Below are positions 20,364 to 39,827 of a DNA stretch of 64,000 nt, piece after piece; positions within the stretch are counted from its first letter, which is position 1; each line of letters opens with the position of its first letter. The DNA is taken from contig NZ_CP060298.1 in NCBI RefSeq assembly GCF_014303395.1, forward strand, positions 1,364,001 through 1,428,000. Reading direction: 5' to 3'. Origin of the DNA: Nakamurella sp. PAMC28650 (lineage in GTDB: Bacteria; Actinomycetota; Actinomycetes; Mycobacteriales; Nakamurellaceae). Both the position numbers and the translations under genes were made by a program. The notes under the pieces are model-generated. The model was not told the origin of the DNA. It did no database searches and was given only the letters and a program-made list of their open reading frames with translations.

Positions 20364-21191
20364 ATGAGTGTGCAGATCAGGCAACTGCTCGCCTCGGCGA
20401 GCCCCGCTCTCGCGATGGGTGTCGGGTCTTTCCGACGCGCCGGTGCGCTGGTACCGGCCGGCGCCAGGGGTCGGACCGTCGCACTGATCGGTCGACAGCC
20501 CGGCTCCGGGACCAGCACCGTCGCGGCCGTGATGGCACTGGCGGCAGCCGGCTACACCGGCAACCGAGTGGTCGTCATCGAGACCAACACCCCCGGCCCC
20601 GGTGCCGGCCGCGGGGTCACCCAGCTGCTGGGCGGAACCGGCGACGGGCGCCTGCCCGCTCTGCTCGCCGTGCCGGACGGCGAGGCGGTGGCCCGGCGCC
20701 GGATCCGGGCGGCGGCCACTCCGGGCGCGGCCGTCCCGGTGCTCGCACTGCCGCCGGAGGCCGGCGGCTTTGCCCCACAGGTGCTCGAGCGGACCCTGGC
20801 CCGGCTGCGTCATCGGGCCGACCTGACGATCGTCGACACCCCTAGTGACCGGGGCGAACCGGTCTTCCACGCCGTTCTGCACCTGGTCGACCACGTCCTG
20901 CTGGTGCTGCCCGCCGACGCCGAGGCGCCGGAGCGTCTGGCCGCCATGCGTCGCTGGCTCGCCGCAACCCCGGGGCGGCCCCGTCAGCACGACCTGTCCG
21001 TGGTGCTGGTCGCCCGCAAGTCGCTCGTCCCGTCGTGGCGGCCGCAGGATCTCCGGTGGGTGCTGCTCCGACGGGACCGTGCCCTGCGTGACGGGCGGCC
21101 CGGCCGGATGTCCAGGGCGTCGCTCACCGGCGCCCTGGATCTGCTGACGACCGTCTCCGACCCGGTCAGTCGATCGAATCCTCCGGCCTGA
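20364..21191 (+). CDS. MinD/ParA-like protein of the type VII secretion locus with altered P-loop
   Basis: 275 residues from the ATG at 20364, with GAGGAGAG upstream. The fold is SIMIBI/MinD-like: a first strand VALIGRQPGSGTST in place of the deviant Walker A, then VVVIETNTPG (switch I), LTIVDTPS (Walker B/switch II) and VLLVLPAD. Both lysines of the usual KGGxGKT motif are replaced (Q and T), so ATP hydrolysis may be lost or different. ESX loci often carry such ATPases (EspI-like). It is convergent with eccC, and their 3' ends overlap by 26 bases. Confidence 0.7.
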   Translation: MSVQIRQLLASASPALAMGVGSFRRAGALVPAGARGRTVALIGRQPGSGTSTVAAVMALAAAGYTGNRVVVIETNTPGPGAGRGVTQLLGGTGDGRLPALLAVPDGEAVARRRIRAAATPGAAVPVLALPPEAGGFAPQVLERTLARLRHRADLTIVDTPSDRGEPVFHAVLHLVDHVLLVLPADAEAPERLAAMRRWLAATPGRPRQHDLSVVLVARKSLVPSWRPQDLRWVLLRRDRALRDGRPGRMSRASLTGALDLLTTVSDPVSRSNPPA

Positions 21192-24100
21192 AGGCCAGCT
21201 GTACCAACGTCGGCTTGCGGCCGCGTCGTACCAGGGTGCCGCGGCCGGGCGGCTGGACCGACAGGTGCACGCCCGGGTAGAGCGCCCCCTCCTGACGGTC
21301 GCCGGAGAGCAGCAGTCCGGTGGCGCCGACCTCGCGGAGCCGCTGCGGCACCGGCTCGTAGAGCGCGCGGGACACCCCGCCGGAACGCCGCGCCACGATC
21401 ATGTGGAATCCGACGTCCCTGGCCTGCGGGAGGAACTCGACGAACGGGGCCAACGGACCCGAGCCGCCGGGGGAGAGCAGGTCGTAGTCGTCGACGACGA
21501 CGAAGATCTCCGGGCCGCGCCACCAGGAGCGGGCGCGGAGAGCGGCCGCGGTCACGTCCTCCGGTGGCAGCCGCCCCTTGAGCTCGCCGGCCACCCCGGC
21601 CGCCATCCCGGCCGCCGTCGCGGTGGTCCCGGCGTAGGCGCCGAGGTAGTCCTCGGGGACCACGTCCAGCAGGGTTCGACGGATGTCGAACACTGCGAAC
21701 ACCACCTCGTTGTCGGTGTACCGGCCCACCAGATCCCGCACGATCATCTTCAGCAGCGACGTCTTGCCGGACTCTGCGTCACCGATCACCAGCAGGTGCG
21801 CGTCGGCACCGCGCCAGTCGAGTTCGACGGGTTTGAGATCGGTCTCGTCGACGCCGATCACGATGCCGCTCCTGGTCCCGGCGGCCCGCAGCAGCCGGCC
21901 GTGATCCACCAGGGTCGGCAGCATCCGGATCTCCGGGACCGGGTCACCGGGCCAGGCCGAGGCGATCGAGGCGATCAGCGATTCCAGGGTCGACCCACCG
22001 CCCAGATGCGGCAGGCAGACCTGGGCCTGCAGCCCACCCTCGACCAGAGCCCGACCGGGATTGTCCGACCGCAGGTTGACGGCCTGCTTGCGGCCGACCA
22101 CCGAATCACCCGGATCGTTGAGCCGGAACTCGATCTTGGTCCCGATCGCCGCCTGCAGTTGCATGCGGATGTCCGACCAGCGACCGGCCGTCAGGATCAG
22201 GTGGACGCCGTAGCCGGGACCGCGGGTGCCCAGATCCTGGACCAGGTCGGCCAGGTCCTCGAAATCGCTGCGCAGCACCGGGAAGTTGTCGATCACCAGG
22301 AAGATGTCGGCGACCTGCAGTTCGGTGAGACGCCCCTGCCGGAATCGATCGCGCATGGCCTCGACCGAGTCGATGCCCAACCGGCCGAACAGCTCCTCGC
22401 GCTCGGCCATCGCGGTGGCCACCTCGGCCACCGTGCGGCGCACCCGGTCACCGTCGAGCCTGGTGGCCACGCCGGCGACATGGGGCAGGCCGTCCAGGAT
22501 CCTGAGCGCGCCGCCCCCGAGGTCGAGGCAGTAGAACGCGACCTCGCCCGGTTGGTGGGACAGGGCGGTGGACACGACCAGGGTGCGCAGGAGAGTGGAC
22601 TTCCCGGTCTGCGGGGCCCCGAGGATCGCCAGGTGACCGCCGGAGGCACCGAGGTCGAGCGACAACGGTTCCTGCTTCTGCTCGGCCGGCCTGTCCAGCA
22701 GTCCGACGAGTGCCACGAGAGGGCCGGCCGACTGCGGGGTCGTGGTTGCGTTCCCGGATCGGGCGTCGAAGCGCAGCCCGAGTACGGGATCGGTGACGAG
22801 CTCGCCGAGCACGGCTCCGAGGGTGAGCTCGTGGGGCAGCGGCGGCAGCCAGATCTGGGTGACCTGACGCCCGGCCGCGGCCAACTGCGCGACGGCCACG
22901 TCGAGCACGGTCGGGGCGAGTGCATCGACCTCGACCGCCGGAGCGGGCCGATCCGGCTCGATCGCGGCGAGGTAGGCCGCGGTGTCGTTGAAGAACGGGA
23001 AGGGAGCCGGTACCGGCGCGGCGTCCGCGACGGTCTCGCCCGTCACCGGCGGAACGTAGGCCCCGGAGACGTAGCCGGCCTTGAACCGTTGGAACAGCGT
23101 GGTGTCGACCTTCAGGAAGCCCGACCCGGGAATGGGCGGGAGCTCGTAGGCGTCGCCGACGCCCAGCACGGCGCGCGACTCGCCGACGTTGAAGGTGCGC
23201 AACCCCAGGCGGTAGGACAGGAAGGATTCGAGCCCACGCAGCCGCCCCTCCTCCAGTCGCTGGCTGGCGAGCAGCAGATGGACGCCGATCGAACGTCCGA
23301 TCCGGCCGATGGCCAGGAACAGCTCGATGAAATCGGGCTTGGCGGTGAGCAGCTCACCGAACTCGTCGATCACCACGAAGAGGTTGGGCAGCGGCGGATC
23401 GCACAGCGGGTCGCCGCTGTCCCGGCGACGGTTGTACTCGGTGACGTTCGGCAGGTTCCCGGCGTCGGCGAGCAACTGCTGGCGTCGTTTCATCTCCCCG
23501 AACAGGGCGTCGTGCAGTCGATCCACCAGGCCGGTGTCGTCGGACAGGTTCGAGATCATCGCTGCGCAGTGCGGCGCGCGCTCCAACCCCGCAAAGGTCG
23601 CGCCGCCCTTGTAGTCGACCAGCACCAGTGAGAGGCGCTCCGGCGGGTGCAGCATCGCCATCGTCAGCACCACCGTGCGCAGCACCTCGGACTTGCCGGA
23701 TCCGGTGGCGCCGACGCAGAGGCCGTGCGGACCTATCCCGCCCAGTGCGGGCTCCTTCAGATCGAGGTACACCCGTTCGCCCGCCGGTCCGAGGCCGAAC
23801 GGGACCCGCAGGAAATCGACCATCGCGCGGGGCGCCCAGGTCTGCGACACGTCGAAGTGTCCAGGGTCCCGGACGCCGACCAGGTCGCCGAGGTCCAGCA
23901 CCGCTTCCAGCGGGGCGGCCGAGGACGTCTCCTCGACCAGCCGGACCGCCGTCAGCTCCCGGACCAGAGCCTTGACGGTGGAGGCCGAGATGGCGTCCGG
24001 TTCCCCCGAACGCGCCCCGGCGGCTCTGGTCCGTGCTTCGGCCCGGTCGTCGTCATCGCGCGGCGGCCGGAGATCCTGCACCTGCACAGCGCCCTCGTGG

Positions 24101-25251
24101 CAGGTCAGCCGGACGTCCACCCGCTCCGGTTCCTGCTGGACGGATTCGGCGAGCGTGATCACGTGGATGCCGAGGTCGGCCGGCCCTAGCTCGGGCGGGA
24201 GACCGGCGAACAGATCGAGCCGGGGGTCGCCGAGGTCGATGACCACGACGAGCGCCGGCCCGAATCTGGACGGATCGGCGCGGCCGAACCGGCCGGCTCT
24301 GATCGCCTCGCCGGTGCGCCGGGAGATCTCCGGACCGAGCAGCTGGGCGAGCGCCTCGGGGTGTTCGGTGGCCAGCCGCTTCGGCGCGGCACCGTCGAAC
24401 TCGTCCGCAGAGAGCGAGTGCGGCAACCACTTGAGCCAGCCGAGCCAGCCGGCCGACCGCCGGGGCACGCAGCTGTAGATGCGCAGCTCACCAGGGCCGT
24501 GCCAGGCCGCCAGCTGGGCGAGCGCCGCCGTCAGCACCTGCCGGGCCGCGCCGGACGGGCCGACCACCGAGACCCGTCCGCTGACCGGCAGCCCGATCGG
24601 CATGCCTTTCACGATCCGGTCCCGCTCGACGATCCGCAGGACGGCGGCCGCGACCACGACGTCCGGTTCGGCCAGTGGATCGCGGTCCAGCGGCGCGACC
24701 ACCCGCTGCCACAGGGGGCCGGCGCCGGTGCCGATCCTCGCGACCAGGAAGTCGGGATCGCCCGGCCGGCGCTCCCAGAGACGCAACGGATCACGCACGA
24801 GTTCGGGGAGCATTGCCGGATCGGGATGGTGGTGCAGTGCGAGGGCGCGCTGCGCCCGCACCGATTCGGCCAGGTCGCCGCGTACCCGGTCGAGATAGTC
24901 GAGATAGCGTCGCCGCAGGTCGTTGGCCCTTTTGCCGGCACCTGTGCGCTGCGCGACGAACATCACGATCGCGCCGATGACGGTCGCGGCCAGCATGATG
25001 CCGCCGGCGATCAGCATCACCGGATTGCGGTTGGCCACGATCATGATCAGGGACCCGGCCCCGCCCATGATCGGCATCATGATCTGCATGACGCCCTGCA
25101 GCCCGGCCGCCGCATCTGGCAGCGTAGGCGGCGAGAGCAGTTCGACCGGCCGCAGGTCGATCGGTTCCGTCCGGCTGCGGGCCGGTCGGTGGATCAGTCG
25201 TTGTGACACCCCCGCACCCCCCCCGGCCGACGAGCGATCACGCGTTCGCAT
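21166..25251 (-). CDS. eccC: type VII secretion system ATPase EccC (FtsK/SpoIIIE)
   Basis: 1361 residues from the ATG at 25251. Two transmembrane helices (about residues 53-73 and 78-100) are followed by a linker domain and three FtsK-type ATPase domains. P-loops are GATGSGKSE (about residue 515), GAPQTGKST (about 882) and GDAESGKTS (about 1160); the first domain has Walker B VVIDEFGELL. EccC is the motor that binds the substrate and powers export. Many loci split it into EccCa and EccCb; this is the fused form. EccB, EccE and mycosin are not in the window. It is divergent from eccD, and its 3' end overlaps the MinD-like gene. Confidence 0.95.
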   Translation of the reverse strand: MRTRDRSSAGGGAGVSQRLIHRPARSRTEPIDLRPVELLSPPTLPDAAAGLQGVMQIMMPIMGGAGSLIMIVANRNPVMLIAGGIMLAATVIGAIVMFVAQRTGAGKRANDLRRRYLDYLDRVRGDLAESVRAQRALALHHHPDPAMLPELVRDPLRLWERRPGDPDFLVARIGTGAGPLWQRVVAPLDRDPLAEPDVVVAAAVLRIVERDRIVKGMPIGLPVSGRVSVVGPSGAARQVLTAALAQLAAWHGPGELRIYSCVPRRSAGWLGWLKWLPHSLSADEFDGAAPKRLATEHPEALAQLLGPEISRRTGEAIRAGRFGRADPSRFGPALVVVIDLGDPRLDLFAGLPPELGPADLGIHVITLAESVQQEPERVDVRLTCHEGAVQVQDLRPPRDDDDRAEARTRAAGARSGEPDAISASTVKALVRELTAVRLVEETSSAAPLEAVLDLGDLVGVRDPGHFDVSQTWAPRAMVDFLRVPFGLGPAGERVYLDLKEPALGGIGPHGLCVGATGSGKSEVLRTVVLTMAMLHPPERLSLVLVDYKGGATFAGLERAPHCAAMISNLSDDTGLVDRLHDALFGEMKRRQQLLADAGNLPNVTEYNRRRDSGDPLCDPPLPNLFVVIDEFGELLTAKPDFIELFLAIGRIGRSIGVHLLLASQRLEEGRLRGLESFLSYRLGLRTFNVGESRAVLGVGDAYELPPIPGSGFLKVDTTLFQRFKAGYVSGAYVPPVTGETVADAAPVPAPFPFFNDTAAYLAAIEPDRPAPAVEVDALAPTVLDVAVAQLAAAGRQVTQIWLPPLPHELTLGAVLGELVTDPVLGLRFDARSGNATTTPQSAGPLVALVGLLDRPAEQKQEPLSLDLGASGGHLAILGAPQTGKSTLLRTLVVSTALSHQPGEVAFYCLDLGGGALRILDGLPHVAGVATRLDGDRVRRTVAEVATAMAEREELFGRLGIDSVEAMRDRFRQGRLTELQVADIFLVIDNFPVLRSDFEDLADLVQDLGTRGPGYGVHLILTAGRWSDIRMQLQAAIGTKIEFRLNDPGDSVVGRKQAVNLRSDNPGRALVEGGLQAQVCLPHLGGGSTLESLIASIASAWPGDPVPEIRMLPTLVDHGRLLRAAGTRSGIVIGVDETDLKPVELDWRGADAHLLVIGDAESGKTSLLKMIVRDLVGRYTDNEVVFAVFDIRRTLLDVVPEDYLGAYAGTTATAAGMAAGVAGELKGRLPPEDVTAAALRARSWWRGPEIFVVVDDYDLLSPGGSGPLAPFVEFLPQARDVGFHMIVARRSGGVSRALYEPVPQRLREVGATGLLLSGDRQEGALYPGVHLSVQPPGRGTLVRRGRKPTLVQLAFRPEDSID

Positions 25252-25467
25252 GATGACGTCGCCTAGAGTACGGCGGGTCACCGACAGCCGTCCGGGTTCG
25301 GCGTGATCAGGCGTCCGGGGCGGGGAAGCCGACGCCAGGACGCCGGTCCACCGCTGCAACGGTCCGGGGCGGCCGCACCGGTCCCGGGGCAAGCCCCAGC
25401 GGAGCGGGGCAGCGGAACCGATCCGGTCGCAACGGAGTCAGCTCTCCGCCGGCCCTTCGTGACCGCA

Positions 25468-25511
25468 CGCCGGAGCACGACGACCGCAGCGCCGGAGCAC
25501 GACGACCGCAG
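25468..25511. repeat. 22-bp perfect tandem duplication in the eccC-eccD intergenic region
   Basis: Two identical 22-base units, 25468-25489 and 25490-25511, begin CGCCGGAGCACGACG. The divergent 304-base interval 25252-25555 contains no gene; it should hold both promoters. The duplication ends 44 bases before the eccD start. Confidence 0.7.
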
Positions 25512-25555
25512 GGCATCACCGACATCGCACCGTTCGGGTCAGGCAGGGGAGGCGC

Positions 25556-27001
25556 ATGGGTACCCGGTTCACCAGGGTCACCGTCGTCGGCGACGGACGG
25601 CAGATCGACATCTCCCTCCCGGCCGACACGCCACTGGCCGAGCAGATGCCAACGGTGTTGAGGCTGTTGTCCGTGCCGATCACGGCGGTGCCGGTCCGCT
25701 GGCGGCTCGCCGCCCCCGAGTTCGGACCGATCGACCCCTCCAGGTCCCTCGACGAGGTCGGCGTCCTGGACGGCAGTCAGCTGTACCTGACCGAGGCGGC
25801 CGCCGCTCCGCCCCCGCCGTTCGTGGACGACGTCGAGACGACCGTCGCGGAGATGGTCCAGGACAGCGCCGCGAACTGGAGCGGCGAGCCCCGGCGGAGT
25901 GCGGTGGCCCGACTGCTCGCCGTCATGCTGACCGCGACGGTCGTCTTCGGCCTCTACGCCCCGTCCCCGATCGGCTGGGTCGCGCCCGCCGTGGTCGTCG
26001 TCGCGGCCCTGGCCGTCGGCCGTGTCATCACCGGCCGCGGTGGCTGGTTCGCCGCCTGTGCCGCCGTGCCGGCCGCTGCCACTCTGCTGCTGGGCTTCGT
26101 GGCCGTCCGGCCCTCGGCGTTCGGCCTGCGCGGACACGGCGCGGGTGTCCCCGGGGCGGCCGGCGGGGTCGTCGACGTGCCTCTGCGGCCGATCGACGAA
26201 CTCTCGGAAGCACTGCGCTGGAACGGTTTCCCGCTCGCCCTGATCGCGGCAGCCGCGATCGGGCTGGTCCTGGCCGGCCTCGTCCGGCGAACACCGGGTG
26301 TGGTCCTGGCCGGCGCGGCGACTGCGGCCGCTGCCGTCGCTGCGATCTTCTGCCTGCGGCTCGGGCTGCCACCGGACCGGACCGCCGGCCTCGGCCTGCT
26401 GGTCGGTGTCTCGCTGGCCGGTCTGGCCGGCCAGGCGGCTCTGGGCGGTGCCGGTCTGGTCGACCTGATGGTCGCGGACGAGCGCGGTGAACCGGTCCCG
26501 CGCGAGGCGGTCGCCACCGCGGTCCGGCGGGGGCTCGGGACGGCCGGTGGCATGCTCTGGGCCGCAGTCGGGATCGGCGCGGTCGCCTGCTCCATACTCA
26601 TCCTGCGCACCCCGGTCGTCGGCACCGCGGCGACCTGGACGGCGCCGGCTCTCGGGACCCTTGGCGGCCTGATCTTCGCGCTGCGGAGTCGCATGTTCAC
26701 CCGCACCCGGCACGTCGGTCCGATGCTGCTGGTGGCCGTGGTCGTCATGGTGGCGCTGGCCCTGCGCGCGCCGTCGTGGCTCTCGGCCGACCCGGCAGGA
26801 TCAGCGGTGATCACCCTGTCGGTGCTGGTCGTCGCAGGTGCGCTGACCGGCGTCGCGGGACTGCGGACCCTCCGGGAAGTGGCCGGCGCACGGTGGCAAC
26901 GCAACCTGGAACGACTGGAACTGGTCGCCATGCTGGCCCTGGTGCCCGGACTCGTGCTGCTGTTCAGGGTGATCCAGACGGTCCAGCGGTGGTGGGGTTG
27001 A
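25556..27001 (+). CDS. eccD: type VII secretion integral membrane protein EccD
   Basis: 481 residues, GGGGAGG just upstream of the ATG. Residues 1-85 form a ubiquitin-like YukD domain (TRVTVVGDGRQIDISLPAD...DGSQLYLTEA). From about residue 120 there are eleven hydrophobic helices, the architecture of EccD, which lines the export channel as dimers. Length agrees with the family. It is followed, after 109 bases, by the Hsp70-like gene in the same direction. Confidence 0.93.
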   Translation: MGTRFTRVTVVGDGRQIDISLPADTPLAEQMPTVLRLLSVPITAVPVRWRLAAPEFGPIDPSRSLDEVGVLDGSQLYLTEAAAAPPPPFVDDVETTVAEMVQDSAANWSGEPRRSAVARLLAVMLTATVVFGLYAPSPIGWVAPAVVVVAALAVGRVITGRGGWFAACAAVPAAATLLLGFVAVRPSAFGLRGHGAGVPGAAGGVVDVPLRPIDELSEALRWNGFPLALIAAAAIGLVLAGLVRRTPGVVLAGAATAAAAVAAIFCLRLGLPPDRTAGLGLLVGVSLAGLAGQAALGGAGLVDLMVADERGEPVPREAVATAVRRGLGTAGGMLWAAVGIGAVACSILILRTPVVGTAATWTAPALGTLGGLIFALRSRMFTRTRHVGPMLLVAVVVMVALALRAPSWLSADPAGSAVITLSVLVVAGALTGVAGLRTLREVAGARWQRNLERLELVAMLALVPGLVLLFRVIQTVQRWWG

Positions 27002-27110: not shown

Positions 27111-29231
27111 ATGCGGCTGCTGGCCATCGATTTCGGGACCTCGAACACGGTGGCGGCACTGCTGGTCGACGGCCAGGCGCCGCGGACGGTCAGCTTCGAC
27201 ACCTCACCCCTGCTCCCGTCGGCCGTCTTCCTGGGGGCGGACGGGCAGTACATCGTCGGACGTGACGCCCAGCGGCAGGCCAGGCTCGATCCGGCCAGGT
27301 ACGAGCCCAATCCCAAACGCCGGGTCGACGACGGCGAGATCCTGCTCGGTGACCGGGTGGTGCCGGTGGTGGACGTCATCGCCGCCGTGCTGCGGGTGGT
27401 CGCCACCGAGGTGCGACGTCAGCTCGGGGGGGCAGCTCCGGACGAGGTCCGCCTGACGCACCCGGCGCAGTGGGGCGCCATCAGGCAGAACGTGCTGGTC
27501 GCCGCAGCAAGGGCGGCCGGTCTGGGGACCAACCTGCTGCTGATCCCGGAACCGGTGGCAGCAGCGGCCCAGTTCACCCGGCTGCCGGGTCGCGCCCTGC
27601 CGCCCGGCGGCACCGTCGCCGTCTACGACCTCGGCGGGGGCACCTTCGACATCGCGATCGTGGGCCGGACGCAGGGCGGCGCCCCGTCCTCCGCCGGTCC
27701 GGCGTCGCGGGCCGGTCCGGCCCAGGCGGAGTTCCACGTGCTGGCCGAGGCCGGTCTGCCCGATCTCGGCGGCCTGGATTTCGACCAGGCCATCCTGGAC
27801 CAGGTCGGCAGGAGCACCTCCTCGACGGATCCCGGACGGTGGCAGCAGATCCTCCGGCCGGTGGACTCGGCGTCCCGGCGTGCGGCCAGGGCGCTCGCCG
27901 ACGACGTCAGGGCGGCCAAGGAAGCCCTGTCCCGCTACCCGCAGACGGATGTCTCGCTACCCGATCCGTTCGTCGACGCGCACCTGACGAGGACCGAGTT
28001 CGAAGGTCTGATCCGGCCCAACCTGCTGCGGTCCATCGAGGTGCTCTCGACGGTGCTGAAGACCGCGGGCCTTGCCCCGGAGCGGCTCGGGGGGATCTTC
28101 CTGGTGGGTGGGTCCTCCCGGATCCCGCTGGTGGCCGGCCTGATCCAGGACCGCCTGCACGTGACGCCGGTCGCGCTGGACCAGCCGGAGACCGCGGTCG
28201 CCCTCGGAGCCCTGCTGGTCCCGGTGAATCGTGCGAGCAACCGGACTGTGGGGCTCGCGGACCGGTCGTCGCCGTTCGCCGGCCGGCCGGCCGGTTCGCC
28301 GACCGGGCCGCATGCCCCACCTCTGCCGTCGGGGGCGGCCCCCTCACCGCCGGGGGGGAACGCTGCGTCCACCGGCCCGACGCACTCCGTCCGATCCGGA
28401 TCGGCGGGTTCGCCGGTCTCTCCGGACGTGATCCCCCCGTCAGCCGATCGTGGAGGGCGGCGGCGCCTGCTGCTGGCCGGCGCCCTGGTCGTGCTGGTCC
28501 TCGCGGGTGCGGTCCTGCTGATCGTCCGGCCGTTCGGCTCCACCCAGGCCTCCGGGCCGGCCGCCGGCCCGGCTGCCGGCCACCCGACCTCTGCAACGGC
28601 GGCCGGCCCGACCGCTGCCTCAGCCGCCGGGCCGACGCCGGCAACGGCCGCGTCCGTGGGACCGGCGACGGCTGCCACCTCGACCGGCAGCGTGGTCGCC
28701 GCGACCGGTCTGGGGCCCGGCAAAGCGTTCACCGCGGGTGAGGTCGCGTTCATGAGCAACAACGTGGACCGCCTGACGCAGTGCTCGGAGTACACCTCCA
28801 CGTTCAACGGCGCGCCGGAGATCGCCGCCTCGGCGGGGTTCAAGGTCAGTCGGGCGGTGCGATGCGCCGTGGCCACCGCGGACGAGGGCAATCTCTACGG
28901 ATCCGTGCTGGTCTACGTGATGACGGTGAAGACCCCGGCCGCCGCCGACCGATACCTGAGCGATATGTACAAGGCCAAGGTCGCGGACCGGTTCGGTGGC
29001 TACAAGCAGGACAGCGACGTCAAGTTCACCAACGGCGCGGGTGGCCGGGTGATCACCGCGAGCGACCTGCCGACCTTCGGGCAGAATCCCAGCGACCCCA
29101 CGCAGGGCGCCTCGGTGCTGGCCTGGACGTCGACGGGCCGGCCGTACGTGGGCATCGTGGTCTCGCTGCCCCTCGCCTCCCAGTCCGCTCTCAACAGCTA
29201 CTGGGTGGCGAACTACAAGCCACGCAACTGA
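27111..29231 (+). CDS. membrane-anchored Hsp70-like protein without substrate-binding domain
   Basis: 706 residues from the ATG at 27111; a GTG one codon earlier is possible. Residues 1-375 are an Hsp70 nucleotide-binding domain: AIDFGTSNTVAAL, PEPVAAAA, YDLGGGTFDIAIV and FLVGGSSRIPLV. The peptide-binding domain of DnaK is missing. A Pro/Ser/Gly linker (376-440) leads to one transmembrane helix (about 448-468), an Ala/Thr/Pro-rich spacer and a ~165-residue extracytoplasmic domain with two Cys (TQCSEY, AVRCAV), likely disulphide-linked. ATPase events inside could thus drive or sense something outside. Downstream are a dynamin-like GTPase and a GrpE-like protein, its probable exchange factor. 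Confidence 0.85.
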   Translation: MRLLAIDFGTSNTVAALLVDGQAPRTVSFDTSPLLPSAVFLGADGQYIVGRDAQRQARLDPARYEPNPKRRVDDGEILLGDRVVPVVDVIAAVLRVVATEVRRQLGGAAPDEVRLTHPAQWGAIRQNVLVAAARAAGLGTNLLLIPEPVAAAAQFTRLPGRALPPGGTVAVYDLGGGTFDIAIVGRTQGGAPSSAGPASRAGPAQAEFHVLAEAGLPDLGGLDFDQAILDQVGRSTSSTDPGRWQQILRPVDSASRRAARALADDVRAAKEALSRYPQTDVSLPDPFVDAHLTRTEFEGLIRPNLLRSIEVLSTVLKTAGLAPERLGGIFLVGGSSRIPLVAGLIQDRLHVTPVALDQPETAVALGALLVPVNRASNRTVGLADRSSPFAGRPAGSPTGPHAPPLPSGAAPSPPGGNAASTGPTHSVRSGSAGSPVSPDVIPPSADRGGRRRLLLAGALVVLVLAGAVLLIVRPFGSTQASGPAAGPAAGHPTSATAAGPTAASAAGPTPATAASVGPATAATSTGSVVAATGLGPGKAFTAGEVAFMSNNVDRLTQCSEYTSTFNGAPEIAASAGFKVSRAVRCAVATADEGNLYGSVLVYVMTVKTPAAADRYLSDMYKAKVADRFGGYKQDSDVKFTNGAGGRVITASDLPTFGQNPSDPTQGASVLAWTSTGRPYVGIVVSLPLASQSALNSYWVANYKPRN

Positions 29232-29328
29232 TCGCCCGGGTAGGCACGGGCGCACACGAGCACAGCCGGGCGGTCTGCTCATCGGCTGGAGCAGGTCGCG
29301 GTCAGGAACTCCGCGGGAAGGAACACCG

Positions 29329-30978
29329 ATGCAGGGTCCGTTGTCCAAGGCGGTCGGCGGTATGTGCACCGCCCTCCTGCCGCAGGTCTCGCCGCGGACG
29401 GCGGCCGGCGTCGGCGAGGTGCTGAGGCGACTGGACACGCCGTTGCAGCTGGCGGTGGCCGGGCGGATCAAGTCGGGAAAGTCGACCCTGGTCAACGCCT
29501 TGATCGGGCGGCGGGTCGCACCGACCGACGTCGGTGAGTGCACCCGCCTGGTGACCCGGTTCCAGTACGGGACGGTGGATCGCATCGAGGTGGTGTTCCG
29601 GGACGGCCGGCGGTCGACGCTGCCGTTCGCTCCGGACGGCGGGATCCCGGCCGATCTCGGGATCGACCTGGTCGGCGTCTCGCACCTCGAGGCCTACCTG
29701 ACCAGCGCGCTGCTGGCCGACATCACCGTCATCGACACCCCCGGTCTCGGATCGTTGGATTCGGCCTCGGTCTCCCGGACGGAGGCGTTGCTGGGTGCGT
29801 CGCGACTGCCGGCCGATGTCGACGGGTCGGCCGCTCAGGACCCGTCGTCCCTCGATGCGACCTCCCGGTTCGCGGTCGCCGGAGCCGAGGCGGTCGTCTA
29901 CGTGTTCACCCAGTCGGTCCGGGCCGACGACGCGCTGGTGCTGGCCGCCTTCACCGCCGCCACCGCGTCCCGTGACGCCGGCCCGGTCAACGCGCTCGCG
30001 GTGCTGAACAAAGCCGACACCGTGGTCGCCGATTCGGTGCAGGGCGCCGGCGGCAGCATCCGGGAGGCAGCCCGCATCCTGGCCCGCAGCCAGGCCGACC
30101 TCCTCCGGCCGCGGGTGGCGGACGTGTTGCCCGTCATCGGGTTGCTCGCCGAGACAGCGGAGACCGGCGCGTTCACCGCCGCTGACGCCGAGGCCCTGCG
30201 CCTGTTGACCGGTGTCGATCCCGCCCTGTTCGGCGCCATGACGATGGCCGGTGACCTGTTCACCGAGATGGATGCACCCCTCGACCGCCGCACCAGGGTG
30301 CGGCTGCTGCAACTGCTGGACCTCTACGGCATCAGCGAGGCGGTCCGAATCCTGCGGGCCGAGCCGGCGATCTCGGCGGGTGAACTGCGCCGCCGGCTGC
30401 TGGAGGAATCCGGATTCACCGAGCTGCGCCGGAGGCTGGGTGAGGTGTTCCGCTCCCGGGCCGACGGGATCAAGGCCTCGGCGGCACTGGCCGCGATGGC
30501 GGCTCTGGCCGCGTCCTCCGGTGATTGGGCCGAACGCCAGCGCGTGCACGATGCGATCGAGCTGCTGCTCCAGCGGCCGGAGGCTCACCAGCTCCGGTTG
30601 CTGGAGGCATTGACCCTGGTCAGTACCGGTACGGTCCCGATGCCGAACGATCTGACGGCCGAGATCCTCCGGGTCGGCGGATCGGTGCGCCCCGCCGACC
30701 AGCTCGGCCTGCCGGGGGTCCCCGTCGAGCAACTGCAGGCGACCGCGCTGGAACGGGCGGGCTGGTGGCGTTCGTTCGCCTCGTTCGGCGCCACGCCGGC
30801 GCAGAGCCGGGTGGCGCACGTCGTGCACCGGGCCTACTTCCTGATGTGGCAGGAGCTCAGGGGTGATCCACCGTCTCGACCGGTCGGGGCCCTGGCCGTC
30901 GGCACCGCACCACTGCCGCAATTCCGTCAGCCCGATCCGCCGTTCGGGCAGGGCCGGCCCGGGGAGGGACCGAGATGA
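29329..30978 (+). CDS. dynamin-like GTPase (IniA/IniC-type)
   Basis: 549 residues with GGAAGGAAC upstream. The GTPase domain has G1 AGRIKSGKSTLVNAL, G3 DTPGLG and G4 NKAD; an unusually long insert follows G3. The remaining ~330 residues are helical, with RRRL-rich segments, as in bacterial dynamin-like proteins that bend or fuse membranes. Mycobacterial IniA and IniC are characterised relatives in broad terms. Its stop overlaps the next start (ATGA at 30975), placing it in a coupled operon with the repeat protein and the GrpE-like protein. Confidence 0.85.
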   Translation: MQGPLSKAVGGMCTALLPQVSPRTAAGVGEVLRRLDTPLQLAVAGRIKSGKSTLVNALIGRRVAPTDVGECTRLVTRFQYGTVDRIEVVFRDGRRSTLPFAPDGGIPADLGIDLVGVSHLEAYLTSALLADITVIDTPGLGSLDSASVSRTEALLGASRLPADVDGSAAQDPSSLDATSRFAVAGAEAVVYVFTQSVRADDALVLAAFTAATASRDAGPVNALAVLNKADTVVADSVQGAGGSIREAARILARSQADLLRPRVADVLPVIGLLAETAETGAFTAADAEALRLLTGVDPALFGAMTMAGDLFTEMDAPLDRRTRVRLLQLLDLYGISEAVRILRAEPAISAGELRRRLLEESGFTELRRRLGEVFRSRADGIKASAALAAMAALAASSGDWAERQRVHDAIELLLQRPEAHQLRLLEALTLVSTGTVPMPNDLTAEILRVGGSVRPADQLGLPGVPVEQLQATALERAGWWRSFASFGATPAQSRVAHVVHRAYFLMWQELRGDPPSRPVGALAVGTAPLPQFRQPDPPFGQGRPGEGPR

Positions 30979-31172
30979 GTGCCCGACCGGACGCCGGGCC
31001 GACCGACGGCCGGGCCGGCGCCTACGTCGGCGACGCGTACTCGGGCGACGGGGTCTCCGGGGACGGGATCTCCGGCGAGGCCGGGGTCTCCGGGGCCGGG
31101 GTCTCCGGCGAGGCCGGGATCTCCGGTGAGGCCGGGATCTCCGACATCAAGACCAGGACACCGAACTCATGA
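30975..31172 (+). CDS. 65-residue Gly/Ser/Val repeat protein
   Basis: The ATG overlaps the dynamin-like gene stop and its own stop overlaps the GrpE-like start, so it is sandwiched in translational coupling. After a 20-residue polar lead it repeats SGDG/SGEAG units linked by V or I (GVSGDGISGEAGVSGAGVSG), then ends DIKTRTPNS. The third codon position is almost always G or C, supporting a real gene. No signal peptide or hydrophobic helix is seen. A flexible low-complexity linker or coat is the most that can be said; mycobacterial IniB in the related cluster is likewise Gly/Ala-rich. Confidence 0.6.
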   Translation: MSARPDAGPTDGRAGAYVGDAYSGDGVSGDGISGEAGVSGAGVSGEAGISGEAGISDIKTRTPNS

Positions 31173-31471
31173 TGGATTCCGATCCGTCGGTGGAACGACG
31201 GCTGTTGCTCGACCTGCTGATCTACGCCTGGGATCGCGCGCGCAGCGCCGGCGTGTGGGAGCGCCTCTCGGTCGGGCTCGCCGGTGTCGGGGTCGAGGTC
31301 GTCCGACCCGACGGAGAGGTATTCGATCCGATCGCACACGAGGCCGGGGGCGTCGAACCCACGTCGGACCCATTGCTGCACAACACCGTCGCCGAAACCG
31401 AATCGGTGGGTTTCCTCGATCGTGGGCGAGTCATCCGGGAACCGGTGGTCGTCGTCTACCGCTTGATCTGA
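31169..31471 (+). CDS. truncated GrpE-like nucleotide exchange factor
   Basis: 100 residues. The second half matches the GrpE beta-domain: GVEVVRPDGEVFDPIAHEA aligns with the conserved GVE...GExFDPxxHEA block, and the ending VGFLDRGRVIREPVVVVY matches the family's GYxxxxRVLRPAxVVV. The long dimerising coiled coil of true GrpE (about 100 residues) is reduced to a short helix. GrpE releases ADP from Hsp70; the natural partner here is the membrane Hsp70-like protein three genes upstream. It is coupled to the previous gene by an ATGA overlap. Confidence 0.75.
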   Translation: MMDSDPSVERRLLLDLLIYAWDRARSAGVWERLSVGLAGVGVEVVRPDGEVFDPIAHEAGGVEPTSDPLLHNTVAETESVGFLDRGRVIREPVVVVYRLI

Positions 31472-31576: not shown

Positions 31577-32957
31577 GGGTCTCCTGACGTTTTCGTGGGT
31601 GGTTTAGCGGCCTGGTAGCGGCGGGCATAACCCGCCGCGGGTGAGCATTGCCATGGCTATCAACGCTTCTGGGCTGTGAAAGCCGTACGACCTGCGGGTC
31701 AAGGCCCGTAGGTGGGTGTTGGTGGCCTCGGATTGGGCGTTGCTCATGTGGTGGATCAGGGTGTTCCAAATCAGCTGCTGGAACCGCTTCAACGTTGCGG
31801 CCAGGGCGATGAACCCGGGCAGTTGGGAGCGGCGGGCCCAGGCGATCCAGCCGGCCAGCAGTTCACGGCCGGCCTGGCCCTTGACCTGGAACACCGCGCG
31901 CAGTTGCTCCTTCAGCAGATACGCCCGATACAGATGCCGGTTGGTCTGGGCGATCGAGGTGACCGACCCGCGTTGCTCCGGGGACAGGTCCGCCGGGTTT
32001 TTCAGCAATGCCCAGCGGCTGCCCTTCACCGACGACGCCTGCGCAGAGCTACTGTTACCCCGCAGCGTGTTCCACGTCTGACGACGGACCTTGTCCAACT
32101 CCCGGGTGGCCCACCCCACGATATGAAACGGATCCAATCCCAGCACCGCCTGCGGCGCGCGGGCCGTCACGGTGTCGTGGATCCACTGCGCCCCGTCGGC
32201 CGAGACGTGCGTCAACGCCGCCGCCCGTTCTGGGCCGAGTTGGTCGAAGAACCGACCCAGGGTGTCGCTGTTGCGGCCCGGTGCGGCCCACACCAATCTG
32301 CCGGAGTCTTGATCGACCACGCACGTCAGATACCGCTGGCCTTTGCGGTGGGAGATTTCATCGATGCCGATCCGCTGCAGCCCCGCGAGCACGTCCCGGC
32401 CGGCCAAACCGTCGGCGACGACGTGCTCGATGATTGCGCTCACGTGCCGCCACGACGTCCGCATCAACTGCGCCACCACCGACGAAGCGGTGTGCGCCGC
32501 CAACCACGCGCACTGGTCTTCAAACGCTCGGGTTGCCCGCGCGCCGGGTCGGGCCCACGGCACCGCCGCGACGACCACCCCGTGCGTCCGGCAGTTCACC
32601 CGCGGAGCCGCAGCCTGCAGGAATACCATCGTCGACCCCCAGTCCAGCGACCGCCACCGCCGGGTTCCGCCGCCCTGGTCATAGCCCGGCCGTCTACGCC
32701 GGCATCGACTGCACCTGCTCCGGGCGCCCTTCGTCGCACGCACCGAAACGACCAGCACCTGCCGGTCGTCGGCCTCCTCCCACGCCACATCGCACACCTG
32801 CAGTTGCTCGACACCGAGCAGCTTTCGCCATATCGTTACACCGCGCACACCGTGCTCCTGGATAGTGACTGACCCTAGATAAGCCAGAACCTATACGCAG
32901 CCCGGTGTGTCGCCCACAACCAGGGGTCAAACCACCCACGAGAACGTCACAAGAGCC
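31577..32957 (-). mobile_element. ISL3-family insertion sequence, copy 1 (1381 bp)
   Basis: The ends are imperfect inverted repeats of about 30 bases: GGGTCTCCTGACG at the left and GGCTCTTGTGACG read inward from the right, followed in both by a shared CGTGGGTGGTTT block. The element is flanked by an 8-bp target duplication, TAACTTTG at 31569-31576 and 32958-32965, as expected for ISL3. It contains one intact transposase gene and should be active or recently active. It has inserted 106 bases after the GrpE-like gene. Confidence 0.95.
31604..32848 (-). CDS. ISL3 family transposase (copy 1)
   Basis: 414 residues, full length. The N-terminal zinc-binding region (CSRCRRRRPGYD) and a helix-turn-helix precede the DDE_Tnp_ISL3 catalytic core: GIDEISHRKGQRYLT (first Asp), GLDPFHIVGWA (second Asp) and SEATNTHLRALTRRSYGF (Glu region). 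It differs from copy 2 by only a few residues (for example FDQLG against FDELG, RGNSS against RGRSS, RGSVTS against RGSLAS). Transposes its own element. Confidence 0.95.
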   Translation of the reverse strand: MRGVTIWRKLLGVEQLQVCDVAWEEADDRQVLVVSVRATKGARSRCSRCRRRRPGYDQGGGTRRWRSLDWGSTMVFLQAAAPRVNCRTHGVVVAAVPWARPGARATRAFEDQCAWLAAHTASSVVAQLMRTSWRHVSAIIEHVVADGLAGRDVLAGLQRIGIDEISHRKGQRYLTCVVDQDSGRLVWAAPGRNSDTLGRFFDQLGPERAAALTHVSADGAQWIHDTVTARAPQAVLGLDPFHIVGWATRELDKVRRQTWNTLRGNSSSAQASSVKGSRWALLKNPADLSPEQRGSVTSIAQTNRHLYRAYLLKEQLRAVFQVKGQAGRELLAGWIAWARRSQLPGFIALAATLKRFQQLIWNTLIHHMSNAQSEATNTHLRALTRRSYGFHSPEALIAMAMLTRGGLCPPLPGR

Positions 32958-33304: not shown

Positions 33305-34685
33305 GGGTCTCCTGACGTTTTCGTGGGTGGTTTAGCGTCCGGGAAGCGGCGGGCATAACCCGCCGCGGGTGAGCATTGCCATGGCTATCAACGCTTCTGG
33401 GCTGTGAAAGCCGTACGACCTGCGGGTCAAGGCCCGTAGGTGGGTGTTGGTGGCCTCGGATTGGGCGTTGCTCATGTGGTGGATCAGGGTGTTCCAAATC
33501 AGCTGCTGGAACCGCTTCAACGTTGCGGCCAGGGCGATGAACCCGGGCAGTTGGGAGCGGCGGGCCCAGGCGATCCAGCCGGCCAACAGTTCACGGCCGG
33601 CCTGGCCCTTGACCTGGAACACCGCGCGCAGTTGCTCCTTCAGCAGATACGCCCGATACAGATGCCGGTTGGTCTGGGCGATCGAGGCGAGGGACCCGCG
33701 TTGCTCCGGGGACAGGTCCGCCGGGTTTTTCAGCAATGCCCAGCGGCTGCCCTTCACCGACGACGCCTGCGCAGAGCTACTCCTACCCCGCAGCGTGTTC
33801 CACGTCTGACGACGGACCTTGTCCAACTCCCGGGTGGCCCACCCCACGATATGAAACGGATCCAATCCCAGCACCGCCTGCGGCGCGCGGGCCGTCACGG
33901 TGTCGTGGATCCACTGCGCCCCGTCGGCCGAGACGTGCGTCAACGCCGCCGCCCGTTCTGGGCCGAGCTCGTCGAAGAACCGACCCAGGGTGTCGCTGTT
34001 GCGGCCCGGTGCGGCCCACACCAATCTGCCGGAGTCTTGATCGACCACGCACGTCAGATACCGCTGGCCTTTGCGGTGGGAGATTTCATCGATGCCGATC
34101 CGCTGCAGCCCCGCGAGCACGTCCCGGCCGGCCAAACCGTCGGCGACGACGTGCTCGATGATTGCGCTCACGTGCCGCCACGACGTCCGCATCAACTGCG
34201 CCACCACCGACGAAGCGGTGTGCGCCGCCAACCACGCGCACTGGTCCTCAAACGCTCGGGTTGCCCGCGCGCCGGGTCGGGCCCACGGCACCGCCGCGAC
34301 GACCACCCCGTGCGTCCGGCAGTTCACCCGCGGAGCCGCAGCCTGCAGGAATACCATCGTCGACCCCCAGTCCAGCGACCGCCACCGCCGGGTTCCGCCG
34401 CCCTGGTCATAGCCCGGCCGTCTACGCCGGCATCGACTGCACCTACTCCGGGCGCCCTTCGTCGCACGCACCGAAACGACCAGCACCTGCCGGTCGTCGG
34501 CCTCCTCCCACGCCACATCGCACACCTGCAGTTGCTCGACACCGAGCAGCTTTCGCCATATCGTTACACCGCGCACACCGTGCTCCTGGATAGTGACTGA
34601 CCCTAGATAAGCCAGAACCTATACGCAGCCCGGTGTGTCGCCCACAACCAGGGGTCAAACCACCCACGAGAACGTCACAAGAGCC
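33305..34685 (-). mobile_element. ISL3-family insertion sequence, copy 2 (1381 bp)
   Basis: Same length, orientation and ends as copy 1. The 8-bp target duplication is ATATTTCA at 33297-33304 and 34686-34693, different from that of copy 1, so the two insertions were independent. The right end lies 96 bases upstream of lsr2 and 13 bases upstream of a palindrome, so it probably separates lsr2 from distal promoter elements. Confidence 0.95.
33332..34576 (-). CDS. ISL3 family transposase (copy 2)
   Basis: 414 residues, intact, nearly identical to copy 1. The same zinc-binding region and DDE core residues are present. Both copies being uninterrupted suggests recent arrival or maintained activity. 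Confidence 0.95.
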   Translation of the reverse strand: MRGVTIWRKLLGVEQLQVCDVAWEEADDRQVLVVSVRATKGARSRCSRCRRRRPGYDQGGGTRRWRSLDWGSTMVFLQAAAPRVNCRTHGVVVAAVPWARPGARATRAFEDQCAWLAAHTASSVVAQLMRTSWRHVSAIIEHVVADGLAGRDVLAGLQRIGIDEISHRKGQRYLTCVVDQDSGRLVWAAPGRNSDTLGRFFDELGPERAAALTHVSADGAQWIHDTVTARAPQAVLGLDPFHIVGWATRELDKVRRQTWNTLRGRSSSAQASSVKGSRWALLKNPADLSPEQRGSLASIAQTNRHLYRAYLLKEQLRAVFQVKGQAGRELLAGWIAWARRSQLPGFIALAATLKRFQQLIWNTLIHHMSNAQSEATNTHLRALTRRSYGFHSPEALIAMAMLTRGGLCPPLPGR

Positions 34686-34712: not shown

Positions 34713-34781
34713 TTGTGATTTTTCCGACTTGCATGCGCCATGATGGTTGTCTCACGTTCATTCGAGTCGAAAGGCCTCGTC

Positions 34782-35120
34782 ATGGCTCAGGTCACCAATG
34801 TCAAACTCCTCGATGATCTCGACGGCGGCAAAGCCGTGGAGACCGTCTCCTTCGGCGTCGACGGGGTCGGCTACGAAATCGACCTCAGCCTCAAGAACGC
34901 AAAGGCCCTCCGCAAGGCGCTGGCCGAGTTCGTCTCCGTCGGGCGTCAGGTGAAGGCGCCCTCCAGTGGGTCTCCGCGCACCGCCTCCCGGGGTAGGGCT
35001 GCTGGTCCCGATGCCGCAACCGTGCGGGCGTGGGCGCACGAGAACGCCGTTCCGGTATCGGTTCGGGGTCGTGTTTCTGCCGAGGTGCGCGCTCAGTACC
35101 TGGAAGCCAACAGCCAGTAA
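34782..35120 (+). CDS. lsr2: Lsr2 nucleoid-associated silencer
   Basis: 112 residues from the ATG at 34782, with AAAGG 8 bases upstream. The N-terminal oligomerisation domain (VKLLDDLDGGKAVETVSFGVDG...YEIDLS) and the C-terminal DNA-binding domain (VRAWAHENAVPVSVRGRVSAEV), with the RGR AT-hook-like motif, are both complete. Lsr2 is the actinobacterial H-NS analogue; it binds A/T-rich foreign DNA and silences it. It sits between two dynamin-like GTPase genes, directly after the paired insertion sequences. Confidence 0.95.
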   Translation: MAQVTNVKLLDDLDGGKAVETVSFGVDGVGYEIDLSLKNAKALRKALAEFVSVGRQVKAPSSGSPRTASRGRAAGPDAATVRAWAHENAVPVSVRGRVSAEVRAQYLEANSQ

Positions 35121-35146: not shown

Positions 35147-35382
35147 CTGCCGTATCGGTGTTGCCGGGTGATCTCGCCCACGCCGACATCGGTCACCGGG
35201 ATCGATCACCGCGTCGATCAGATGTTCGCCAACGAACACGGAGGCCCTCGGGTTCCCCGGGGACCGGAATATCTCCCGGCCGGTAATCTCCCCGAAATAC
35301 GGGGTAGCTTTCAGGTTCGGCACCGTCACGGTGGGTGCCGCAACACCTCAAGCTAGTAGCGGCCCCGGTTGGAGAAGAAACC

Positions 35383-36363
35383 TTGACGATCACCTCGAGT
35401 GGGATCAGCACCAGAATCATTCCCAGAGATGCGGCTGGGCTCCAGACCCGTCTGCTCATGGACCTCGAGCCGGTCGTCGAAGAGAACCTCAACCGTCATC
35501 TTTCCGTTTTCAAGGACTGGATGCCGCACGACTACATCCCGTGGAGCCAGGGCCGGGATTTCCAGATGCTGGGCGGTCAGGACTGGTCGCTCGAGGATTC
35601 GCGCCTGGATCCGACGGCCCGGACGGCGATGATCGTCAATCTCCTGACCGAGGACAACCTGCCCTCCTACCACCGCGAGATCGCCACTCGTTTCGGGCGT
35701 GACGGCGCCTGGGGCCAGTGGGTCGGACGATGGACCGCCGAGGAGGGTCGGCACGGTATCGCCCTGCGCGACTACCTGGTGGTCACCCGAGGTGTCGACC
35801 CGGTCGAGCTGGAGAACCTGCGGATCGCCCACATGACCGCCGGCTACGACTCCGGGGACAAGTCGGTGCTGCAGACCGTCGCCTACGTCTCCTTCCAGGA
35901 ACTGGCGACCAGGGTCTCGCACCGCAATACCGGCAAGGCGTCCGGCGATCCGCTGGCCGAGGCGCTGCTGGCCAGGATCGCCCTCGACGAGAACCTGCAC
36001 ATGATCTTCTACCGGAATCTGGTTGCCGCCGCCTTCGACATGGCACCGGACGCGACCATGGAGGCGATCCGCGACGAGGTCGTCGGGTTCGCGATGCCGG
36101 GCGCGAACATGCCCGGTTACACGCGCAACGCTGTGACGATCGCAAAGGCCGGTATATACGACCTGCGGCTGCACCACGACGCCGTGGTCCAGCCCGTCCT
36201 GAAGTTCTGGCGTGTCTTCGACCGTGCCGACCTCGGGCCCGCCGGCGAACAGGCGCGCGACGAGCTGTCGGCGTTCATGACGGGCCTCGACGCCCAGGCG
36301 AACCGGTTCGTCGAGCAGCGCGAGACCATGCGCGCGCGGATGGCCGCCAAGGCCGCCAGGTAG
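35383..36363 (+). CDS. acyl-ACP desaturase (di-iron)
   Basis: 326 residues from a TTG at 35383, chosen because GGAGAAG lies 8 bases upstream; an in-frame GTG at 35335 lacks a ribosome site. The di-iron ligands of the family are visible: EENLNRH (Glu), EDNLPSYH (Glu, His), TAEEGRHG (Glu-x-x-His) and LDENLHM (Glu-x-x-His). Such enzymes introduce a double bond into acyl chains on ACP, as mycobacterial DesA1/DesA2 do. It adjusts membrane or envelope lipids, which fits the membrane-remodelling genes on both sides. Confidence 0.87.
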   Translation: MTITSSGISTRIIPRDAAGLQTRLLMDLEPVVEENLNRHLSVFKDWMPHDYIPWSQGRDFQMLGGQDWSLEDSRLDPTARTAMIVNLLTEDNLPSYHREIATRFGRDGAWGQWVGRWTAEEGRHGIALRDYLVVTRGVDPVELENLRIAHMTAGYDSGDKSVLQTVAYVSFQELATRVSHRNTGKASGDPLAEALLARIALDENLHMIFYRNLVAAAFDMAPDATMEAIRDEVVGFAMPGANMPGYTRNAVTIAKAGIYDLRLHHDAVVQPVLKFWRVFDRADLGPAGEQARDELSAFMTGLDAQANRFVEQRETMRARMAAKAAR

Positions 36364-38687: not shown

Positions 38688-38822
38688 TCCCGCCGATCGG
38701 GAACGGCCGGGCGGAGGTTCTCGGCCCCGGGAACCGAATTCGTGCTCCGCGAGTCGGACGGGAACGCCGTCATCGCACGACAGCGTCACGACAACGCACG
38801 ACAGAGCAACGGGAGCGCGATC

Positions 38823-39710: not shown

Positions 39711-39827
39711 CCAGCGGGGTCGGTGGAGCCGCACCGGGATGCATTGCCCGGCCCGACCGGGAACCGAACGTCAGCCGTCGCCGTCACATCCGCGCCGTAC
39801 CCCCCCAAGAGCCGCAAGGAGCGCCCC

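Follow-up and report, generated by a model that had tools for sequence, protein, structure and literature searches.

Why should a bacterium encode an Hsp70 ATPase domain that lacks its substrate-binding half beside a shortened GrpE and two dynamin-like GTPases? The question is raised by a locus of Nakamurella sp. PAMC28650, a soil-type actinobacterium. The locus lies in the window analysed here, i.e. the whole stretch of 64,000 nucleotides from position 1,364,001 to 1,428,000 of the 5.63 Mb one-contig genome. A preliminary description of this stretch had proposed a coupled unit of four genes, encoding an Hsp70 nucleotide-binding domain (NBD) fused to a membrane helix and an external domain, a dynamin-like GTPase, a Gly/Ser repeat peptide, and a GrpE β domain without its coiled coil; together these were suggested to signal across the membrane. 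Below, HSP, DYN1, GRPE and DYN2 denote the module genes and their products. We report that they form a real, conserved variant of an iniBAC-type dynamin locus, of which no published description was found in the literature searched. A functional link of the module genes is likely, and sequence comparisons favour a reading in which an Hsp70/GrpE nucleotide switch controls the IniAC-type dynamin pair (probability roughly 0.55).

Composition of the module

The genes and protein parts concerned are the following.

27111–29231, forward strand: HSP, Hsp70 NBD, linker, transmembrane (TM) helix and external domain, 706 aa (Pfam HSP70, 1.9e-28)
28470–28526, forward strand: predicted TM helix of HSP, single (Kyte–Doolittle script)
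28707–29228, forward strand: external domain of HSP, C-terminal, 174 aa (alignment of four Nakamurella rows; no Pfam family)
29329–30978, forward strand: DYN1, IniC-like dynamin GTPase, 549 aa (Dynamin_N, 2.6e-12)
30975–31172, forward strand: Gly/Ser repeat peptide open reading frame, 65 aa, a species-specific 5′ repeat tract of the grpE-like gene (tandem repeat)
31169–31471, forward strand: GRPE, GrpE-like protein of two short helices and a GrpE β domain, 100 aa (Pfam GrpE, 1.9e-8)
36438–38687, forward strand: DYN2, IniA-like dynamin GTPase, 749 aa (Dynamin_N, 2.5e-15)

All four open reading frames of the preliminary description were recovered where it had placed them, with Pfam HSP70, Dynamin_N and GrpE matches, and both ATGA overlaps (30975–30978 and 31169–31172) are present in the sequence. 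HSP and DYN1 are separated by 97 bp, and a GTG at 27108 is a possible alternative start of HSP. The membership of the unit had to be revised, as the second dynamin, DYN2, belongs to it and the repeat peptide does not. In the closest relative (genome G001) the grpE-like gene itself begins at the same ATGA after DYN1; the peptide, for which Pfam gave no match, is absent there and is therefore not a conserved gene. The window version of the grpE-like gene carries a tandem-repeat tract at 31049–31143, with a frame change, and the GrpE frame is closed by a stop codon 14 codons before 31169.

The Pfam HSP70 match covers residues 89–369 of HSP, the rest of the protein being without match. A substrate-binding domain with its linker was not found: the Pfam and NCBIfam Hsp70 matches stop at residue 357–380. 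The ATP-site motifs DFGTSNT, NPKRR, PEPVAAA, DLGGGTFD and VGGSSRIP are present (at residues 7, 67, 146, 173 and 332), and key ATP-site positions of the NBD are invariant across 15 aligned rows; we take the roles of these residues to be those of their DnaK counterparts. The 192-aa stretch holding the external domain gave no Pfam match at E 0.01. Two cysteines are conserved in the external domain of all four aligned Nakamurella rows, a pair that is in keeping with a putative oxidising outside.

A hydropathy scan with our own Kyte–Doolittle script predicted a TM helix in 21 of 29 HSP rows, a set that includes cut sequences, one DnaK, and two rows (from locus stretches L037 and L088) in the wrong frame. 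In nine of these 21 rows no more than 25 residues separate the helix from the C-terminus, and in 12 a longer stretch follows it. In several families, loci encode proteins that stop at a C-terminal TM helix behind the NBD; an external domain is thus optional, and signalling across the membrane cannot be the general function. The external domain of the preliminary description therefore stands for the window, where it follows the TM helix, but not for several families that lack it, and the transmembrane signalling had to be given up as a general role.

GRPE matches PF01025 with 34.6 bits (gathering score 25.8) over GrpE positions 101–163 of 165, and a 19-row GRPE profile matches the GrpE chains 8gb3, 1dkg, 4ani and others. 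The signature FDP..HEA is retained in the stub of the window. The long N-terminal paired helix of GrpE is missing from this 100-aa protein (the profile match begins at 101); in this the idea of a GrpE without its coiled coil was right, although two short helices are kept besides the β domain. An AlphaFold model places these helices at residues 6–23 and 29–39 with moderate confidence (mean predicted local distance difference test, pLDDT, 71). Foldseek with this model listed human GrpEL1 first, at an E of 0.1, which is not significant. Inspection by eye indicated that the N-terminal parts of the stubs vary freely, being low-complexity or repeat-rich in Nakamurella; in several other families they contain hydrophobic stretches that resemble TM helices.

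Both dynamins have intact G1, G3 and G4 motifs (GRIKSGKS, DTPG and NKAD in DYN1; GETNRGKS, DTPG and TKTD in DYN2). The named genomes that matched DYN1 most closely in a genome collection search were those of Nakamurella lactea, N. endophytica and N. aerolata.

Recurrence of the module in related genomes

The same 61 genomes of near relatives were searched for DYN1 (E 0.001 or better), GRPE and HSP (family NBD > 240 bits); in the labels used here, G stands for a relative's genome, L for a locus stretch and f for a family. The order hsp70(NBD-TM)–dyn1–grpE-like–dyn2 was found on one strand in 10 of the 61 (the window, L082, L083, L084, L085, L090, L091, L092, L093 and L095), so that the coupling claimed by the preliminary description does recur elsewhere. 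HSP stays in the dynamin operon in six genomes of the genus of the window, and DYN1 and GRPE share the ATGA overlap also in G001. Elsewhere the arrangement varies: HSP lies downstream and on the other strand in L096–L098 and L114, and L101 (G011) has the order DYN2–GrpE–HSP–DYN1 on one strand, with GrpE between DYN2 and HSP.

DYN1 was matched in 35 of the 61 genomes, and the loci of 32 of these were read (G036, G046 and G057 were left out). GRPE-like proteins scored 87–152 bits in 24 genomes; other, canonical-type matches reached at most 45.6 bits. DYN1 was present in 24/24 GRPE genomes as compared with 11/37 others, and an HSP-family NBD in 24/24 as compared with 9/37. By coordinates, GRPE lies within 1 kb of DYN1 in 23/24. 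The exception is G025, in which no DYN or HSP match was found within the 18 kb searched around GRPE (L123); the GRPE-like domain of this genome is part of a 388-aa open frame (L123, 7908–9071), away from the dynamins. Loci called GRPE- or HSP-free were searched again without the filter for overlapping matches. A divergent short GrpE of G011 (L101, 10694–11227, minus strand; Pfam GrpE 1.4e-9) was missed by the genome search, and the GRPE counts are therefore lower bounds; divergent stubs of this kind may exist elsewhere.

A wider sample of 394 genomes of the class was searched at thresholds of 1e-14 (GRPE), 1e-60 (HSP) and 1e-40 (DYN1), yielding GRPE in 16, HSP in 39 and DYN1 in 63 genomes. HSP was found in 14/16 GRPE genomes vs 25/378 others (Fisher p 8e-14), DYN1 in 14/16 vs 49/378 (p 2e-10), and HSP in 33/63 DYN1 genomes vs 6/331 others (p 1e-24), none of these values being corrected for descent. 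Of the 33 genomes with both, 26 have HSP no more than 15 kb from DYN1. Thirteen GRPE loci fell outside the order of the window (f27, f31, f32 and f34); 11 contain both dynamins, and 10 of these 11 also HSP. The two loci without dynamins are L154, where nothing else was found, and L156 (G238). We rejected L156 as a GRPE and HSP pair, since its Hsp70 groups with DnaK and its GrpE is longer, so that a second DnaK-type protein is more likely; it was kept within the counts (16/394, and the 27 and 34 rows used below) and is named as an exception. Thirteen further loci, picked for close HSP and DYN1, hold DYN2–DYN1 pairs with HSP and gave no GRPE match.

An insert in lobe IIB of the NBD

HSPs of grpE-bearing loci share a feature of the NBD.

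27837–27860, forward strand: 8-residue insert with Trp244 in lobe IIB of the HSP NBD (segment length in NBD alignments)

In HSPs of grpE-bearing loci the lobe IIB segment exceeds that of DnaK by 8 residues or more and includes a Trp; in other HSPs the excess is 1–6 residues. The insert was counted in 32/34 NBD rows at grpE-bearing loci as opposed to 2/22 without GRPE, and in 0/2 DnaK rows (Fisher p 6e-11, uncorrected). A first choice of loci had given 26/27 vs 1/20. For the recount, L101 was moved to the GrpE side, where L146 (two rows), L155, L185, L187 and L188 were added; L088, L105 and L106 were added to the side without GRPE. Left out were L083 and L090, which share their genomes with L036 and L038, and L037, which shares its genome with L088; the insert position is not covered by L102 and L152. 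Segment length served as the measure, and an earlier test over a wider stretch (5/20 and 14/14) was dropped, having counted tryptophans outside the insert.

The insert is also present in 5/5 NBDs from the four f14 genomes, where HSP is apart from grpE, and in 13/14 NBDs from other stretches (the exception being G025), including paralogs away from dynamins. As it is carried by such paralogs and by NBDs of two GRPE-less genomes, it marks a subtype rather than a locus. In a tree of 49 NBD rows, 26 grpE-side rows grouped with L099, L101 and L169, and the GRPE label changed four times, compared with a mean of 16.2 after shuffling (L101 being labelled as without GRPE).

An Hsp70-type NBD match is present in all 61 genomes. 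G027, G049 and G057 have 14–16 Hsp70 NBD matches each, DnaK included, most of them away from the dynamin locus; these many NBDs constitute a large actinobacterial Hsp70 family.

The putative Hsp70–GrpE interface

In the DnaK–GrpE complex of Mycobacterium tuberculosis, the contact of the GrpE β domain with NBD lobes IB and IIB is described as the major one, and the substrate domain and lobes IA/IIA are met by the long GrpE helix (PMC10803776). In the module this helix is missing from the stub and the substrate domain from HSP, two losses that fit each other. What the module shares with the housekeeping DnaK–GrpE pair (1DKG, 8GB3, 4ANI) is the NBD fold family, the ATP-site motifs, and the GrpE β domain with short helices. 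Unlike that pair, it has no substrate domain, no long GrpE helix and no DnaJ gene nearby, the two J-domain genes of the genome lying far away. Within lobe IIB, HSP differs from DnaK by the 8-residue insert and by an exposed loop that is shorter by about nine residues, and the contact residues are mostly changed. This loop holds Y257 and is about nine residues shorter in the HSPs aligned and about seven in L101; its DnaK counterpart we presume to lie near E. coli residues 276–302. GrpE numbering was taken from the profile alignment to GrpE chains, and DnaK numbering was placed by motif and residue order on the DnaK of this genome.

Kinship with iniBAC

The preliminary description had named mycobacterial iniBAC as the nearest known parallel, and this parallel turned out to be one of homology. 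DYN1 is 32% identical to the IniC-position protein of the mycobacterial-type locus L106 over 446 columns (E 3e-39). For DYN2, identity to the IniA-position protein of L106 is 28% (E 4e-17), and the match to the IniA structure 6j72 has an E of 2.8e-15. L105 and L106 are both mycobacterial-type loci; M. smegmatis IniA and the DYN2 homologue of L105 match over 598 residues with a score of 1015 bits. An excerpt on iniBAC calls it an envelope-stress operon (PMC5760070), and membrane fission or fusion activity has been demonstrated for M. smegmatis IniA, according to a passage in PMC6715688. In most relatives read, the dynamin genes are adjacent or parted by GRPE; insertions part them in the window.

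An Hsp70-like NBD–TM gene adjoins the ini genes in both L105 and L106, and therefore the tie between Hsp70 and dynamins reaches into mycobacteria. Its product is 29% identical to HSP and has no insert; the gene forms a tandem with the AAA-type gene that occupies the iniR position and is oriented divergently from the ini genes. L105 and L106 yielded no GRPE stub. For M. smegmatis, one sentence in PMC5760070 places a dnaK-like gene next to iniR. A distance of about 6 kb separates the ini genes from dnaK in one mycobacterial-type genome (L106, 1–1227 and 7095–12412).

The module thus resembles iniBAC in its two paired dynamins, homologous to IniC and IniA, and in the Hsp70-like NBD–TM gene nearby. 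It departs from iniBAC in that dyn1 (iniC-like) precedes dyn2 (iniA-like), with GRPE between them, and in that no IniB gene was recognised in it, no IniB profile having been used. An AAA-LuxR-type profile gave no IniR-like match in the window, so the IniR expected of an iniBAC operon was not recovered, and loci of the genus of the window gave no strong match, with a single weak one of 158 bits in L100. An AAA-LuxR gene lies near the dynamin pair in 42 of the 43 loci L039–L081 and near six GRPE loci (L089, L096, L097, L098, L113 and L114); L086, L087 and L100 gave weaker matches of 39–158 bits. Where Pfam was run (L039, L089 and L097), the AAA-LuxR gene has the architecture of IniR. Homology to IniR was not accepted, as BLASTP with part of the mycobacterial iniR-position gene gave an E of only 0.23; we therefore call the gene IniR-like by architecture only.

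A proposed nucleotide switch for a dynamin pair

We propose that DYN1 and DYN2 are a membrane-remodelling pair that would have its own nucleotide-state switch, made up of a membrane-anchored Hsp70 ATPase domain without substrate domain and a dedicated, shortened GrpE. The stub would open the Hsp70 cleft, so that ADP is released, the remaining core contact presumably being that of the GrpE β domain with lobes IB and IIB. Fixed to the membrane, the Hsp70 would, in one nucleotide state, either bind the dynamins or let them go, which may license dynamin assembly or force disassembly under envelope stress. GRPE is probably the exchange factor of HSP, a step to which co-occurrence and the insert point. 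A tentative, more specific version, which we would hold somewhat short of even odds, sees an orthogonal pair of membrane Hsp70 NBD and GrpE stub that is purely a switch, with neither a substrate domain nor a J-protein of its own, timing the assembly and disassembly of the dynamin pair, while anchors and external domains are exchanged between lineages.

Several observations weigh against this proposal. Contacts of M. tuberculosis DnaK are rarely kept in 27 grpE-side rows (R44 in one, N56 in none, T60 in two and Y257 in none), and E236 is partly kept, as E or D, in 15 of the 27. R44 and N56 are weak tests, because the DnaK of this genome itself differs at both (K and R, respectively). On the GrpE side, 19 stub rows retain R169 in none, H181 in two and S118 in none. 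Judging by these residues, an Hsp70–GrpE contact, if made, would be a re-built one. Of the pairing put forward in the preliminary description, the co-occurrence and the subtype-specific insert are in favour; four of the five DnaK contact residues, rarely or never kept, and the fifth, kept in part, are not. AlphaFold of the whole HSP (three-row alignment) gave a mean pLDDT of 33.6 and no usable model. The insert, too, has exceptions: L101 and L156 have GrpE without the full insert, L099 and L088 carry it without GRPE, and insert-type NBDs occur in the GRPE-less genomes G007 (L183) and G023 (L186). In G025, where GRPE is away from the dynamins, HSP has no insert, and in G141 the HSP found adjoins a second dynamin pair and has none either. 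Since the rows are related and the tree shows four label changes, the association reflects one or a few old events, retained both within and beyond the gene order, not many independent ones. In four f14 genomes (G029, G041, G050 and G058) GRPE lies with the dynamins and HSP elsewhere in the genome. Finally, dynamin pairs can do without the switch: 49 of the 63 DYN1 genomes lack GRPE at the threshold used, and neither HSP nor GRPE was found in any of the 43 loci L039–L081 when their DNA was searched.

Four rival explanations were weighed. The stub could act on the housekeeping DnaK and recruit it to the dynamin complex for a disassembly like that by Hsc70 and auxilin, the membrane Hsp70 merely sharing the locus. 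The retained FDP..HEA signature and the profile matches to GrpE chains are what one would expect of such a stub, as are the f14 genomes that keep GRPE with the dynamins and no linked HSP. Yet the residues R169, H181 and S118, by which GrpE contacts DnaK, are mostly changed in the stubs, and GRPE tracks one Hsp70 subtype although every one of the 61 genomes has an Hsp70-type NBD; we consider this explanation unlikely. The membrane Hsp70 might instead be a sensor that feeds gene regulation, through an IniR-like regulator or a two-component system, and makes no contact with the dynamins. The tandem that the Hsp70-like gene of the mycobacterial-type loci forms with the AAA-type gene in the iniR position, and the dnaK-like gene reported beside iniR in one sentence on M. 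smegmatis (PMC5760070) speak for this, together with the ectodomains of Nakamurella, the AAA-LuxR gene near six GRPE loci and, in the f14 locus L087, a histidine kinase and a response regulator. This too seems improbable, because the genus of the window gave no strong regulator match and yet keeps HSP in the dynamin operon in six genomes, and because an ectodomain is absent from the forms whose TM helix is C-terminal.

A third possibility is an anti-phage or conflict system, in which infection would cause the dynamin pair to seal or cut the membrane, with the Hsp70 and GrpE setting the threshold of the trigger, a role proposed in other systems of multicellular bacteria that are built around a GTPase. 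In PADLOC, DYN2 matched LeoA (1.4e-19) and LeoBC (5e-13) and DYN1, more weakly, LeoA (6.5e-9). We take these LeoA/LeoBC dynamin systems to be those named Eleos. HSP, GRPE and two neighbouring proteins gave no PADLOC match, and the module dynamins are homologous to IniA and IniC, the GTPases of an operon described, in the excerpt cited above, as one of envelope stress (PMC5760070). Bacillus subtilis DynA is reported to protect against phage (PMC8844932). PMC7159879 describes GAP1-N2 GTPase systems, found mainly in actinobacteria and firmicutes, whose second theme resembles the module in joining a GTPase to HSP70 and GrpE, with an HSP70 lacking the peptide-binding domain in a subset; the systems as described there have Zn-ribbon GTPases, an FNIII-repeat component with DnaJ or TPR fusions, and GAP1. 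No DnaJ, FNIII, TPR or Zn-ribbon GTPase was listed when the genes of the module and those close by were scanned with Pfam, and GAP1 was not searched with a model of its own. On balance a role in conflict appears doubtful. That the genes are chance neighbours, sharing a region and no function, is very improbable: gene order and orientation do differ between families, and insertions part the genes in the window, but the genome-level and linkage statistics hold inside and outside the order, and DYN1 and GRPE overlap by ATGA in the closest relative as well.

On the preferred reading, i.e. control of the dynamin pair by the Hsp70/GrpE switch, the conserved module provides named candidates for the switching of bacterial dynamins, including IniA and IniC of drug stress. 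If it is true, the ATPase cycle of Hsp70 can serve as a signalling switch in a protein that has no chaperone half.

Neighbouring genes

The following features adjoin or interrupt the module in the window.

31577–32957, reverse strand: insertion sequence of the ISL3 family, copy 1 (DDE_Tnp_ISL3, 3.7e-65)
33305–34685, reverse strand: insertion sequence of the ISL3 family, copy 2 (99% identical to copy 1)
34740–35120, forward strand: lsr2-like gene, not a module member (Pfam Lsr2, 9e-25)
35335–36363, forward strand: acyl-ACP desaturase-like gene, not a module member (FA_desaturase_2, 4.2e-70)
38742–39710, forward strand: DUF6802 repeat protein downstream of DYN2, a possible accessory (Pfam DUF6802, 2.6e-11)
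39723–41021, forward strand: second DUF6802 repeat protein (Pfam DUF6802, 2.7e-22)

In the window, GRPE and DYN2 are separated by the two ISL3 copies, which have the same orientation and are 347 bp apart, and by the lsr2 and desaturase genes; the latter two lie between GRPE and DYN2 also in G001 (L082). DYN2 follows GRPE in L083–L085 of the same genus, at a distance of at most about 0.8 kb, and in L090, at about 4 kb. Both DUF6802 proteins belong to one family with acidic, Asp-rich repeats; in the neighbour clustering this family occurs in 12 loci.

Directly upstream of HSP (21166–27001) are divergently oriented genes for an EccC-like protein (1408 aa, minus strand) and an EccD (plus strand; TIGR03920, 96.4 bits with a cut-off of 94.95), and no EccB or MycP match was obtained among the neighbouring genes scanned. 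These type VII secretion genes were rejected as part of the module, since among the relatives examined only G001 (L082) has EccC; there the EccC-like gene is retained and no EccD was matched.

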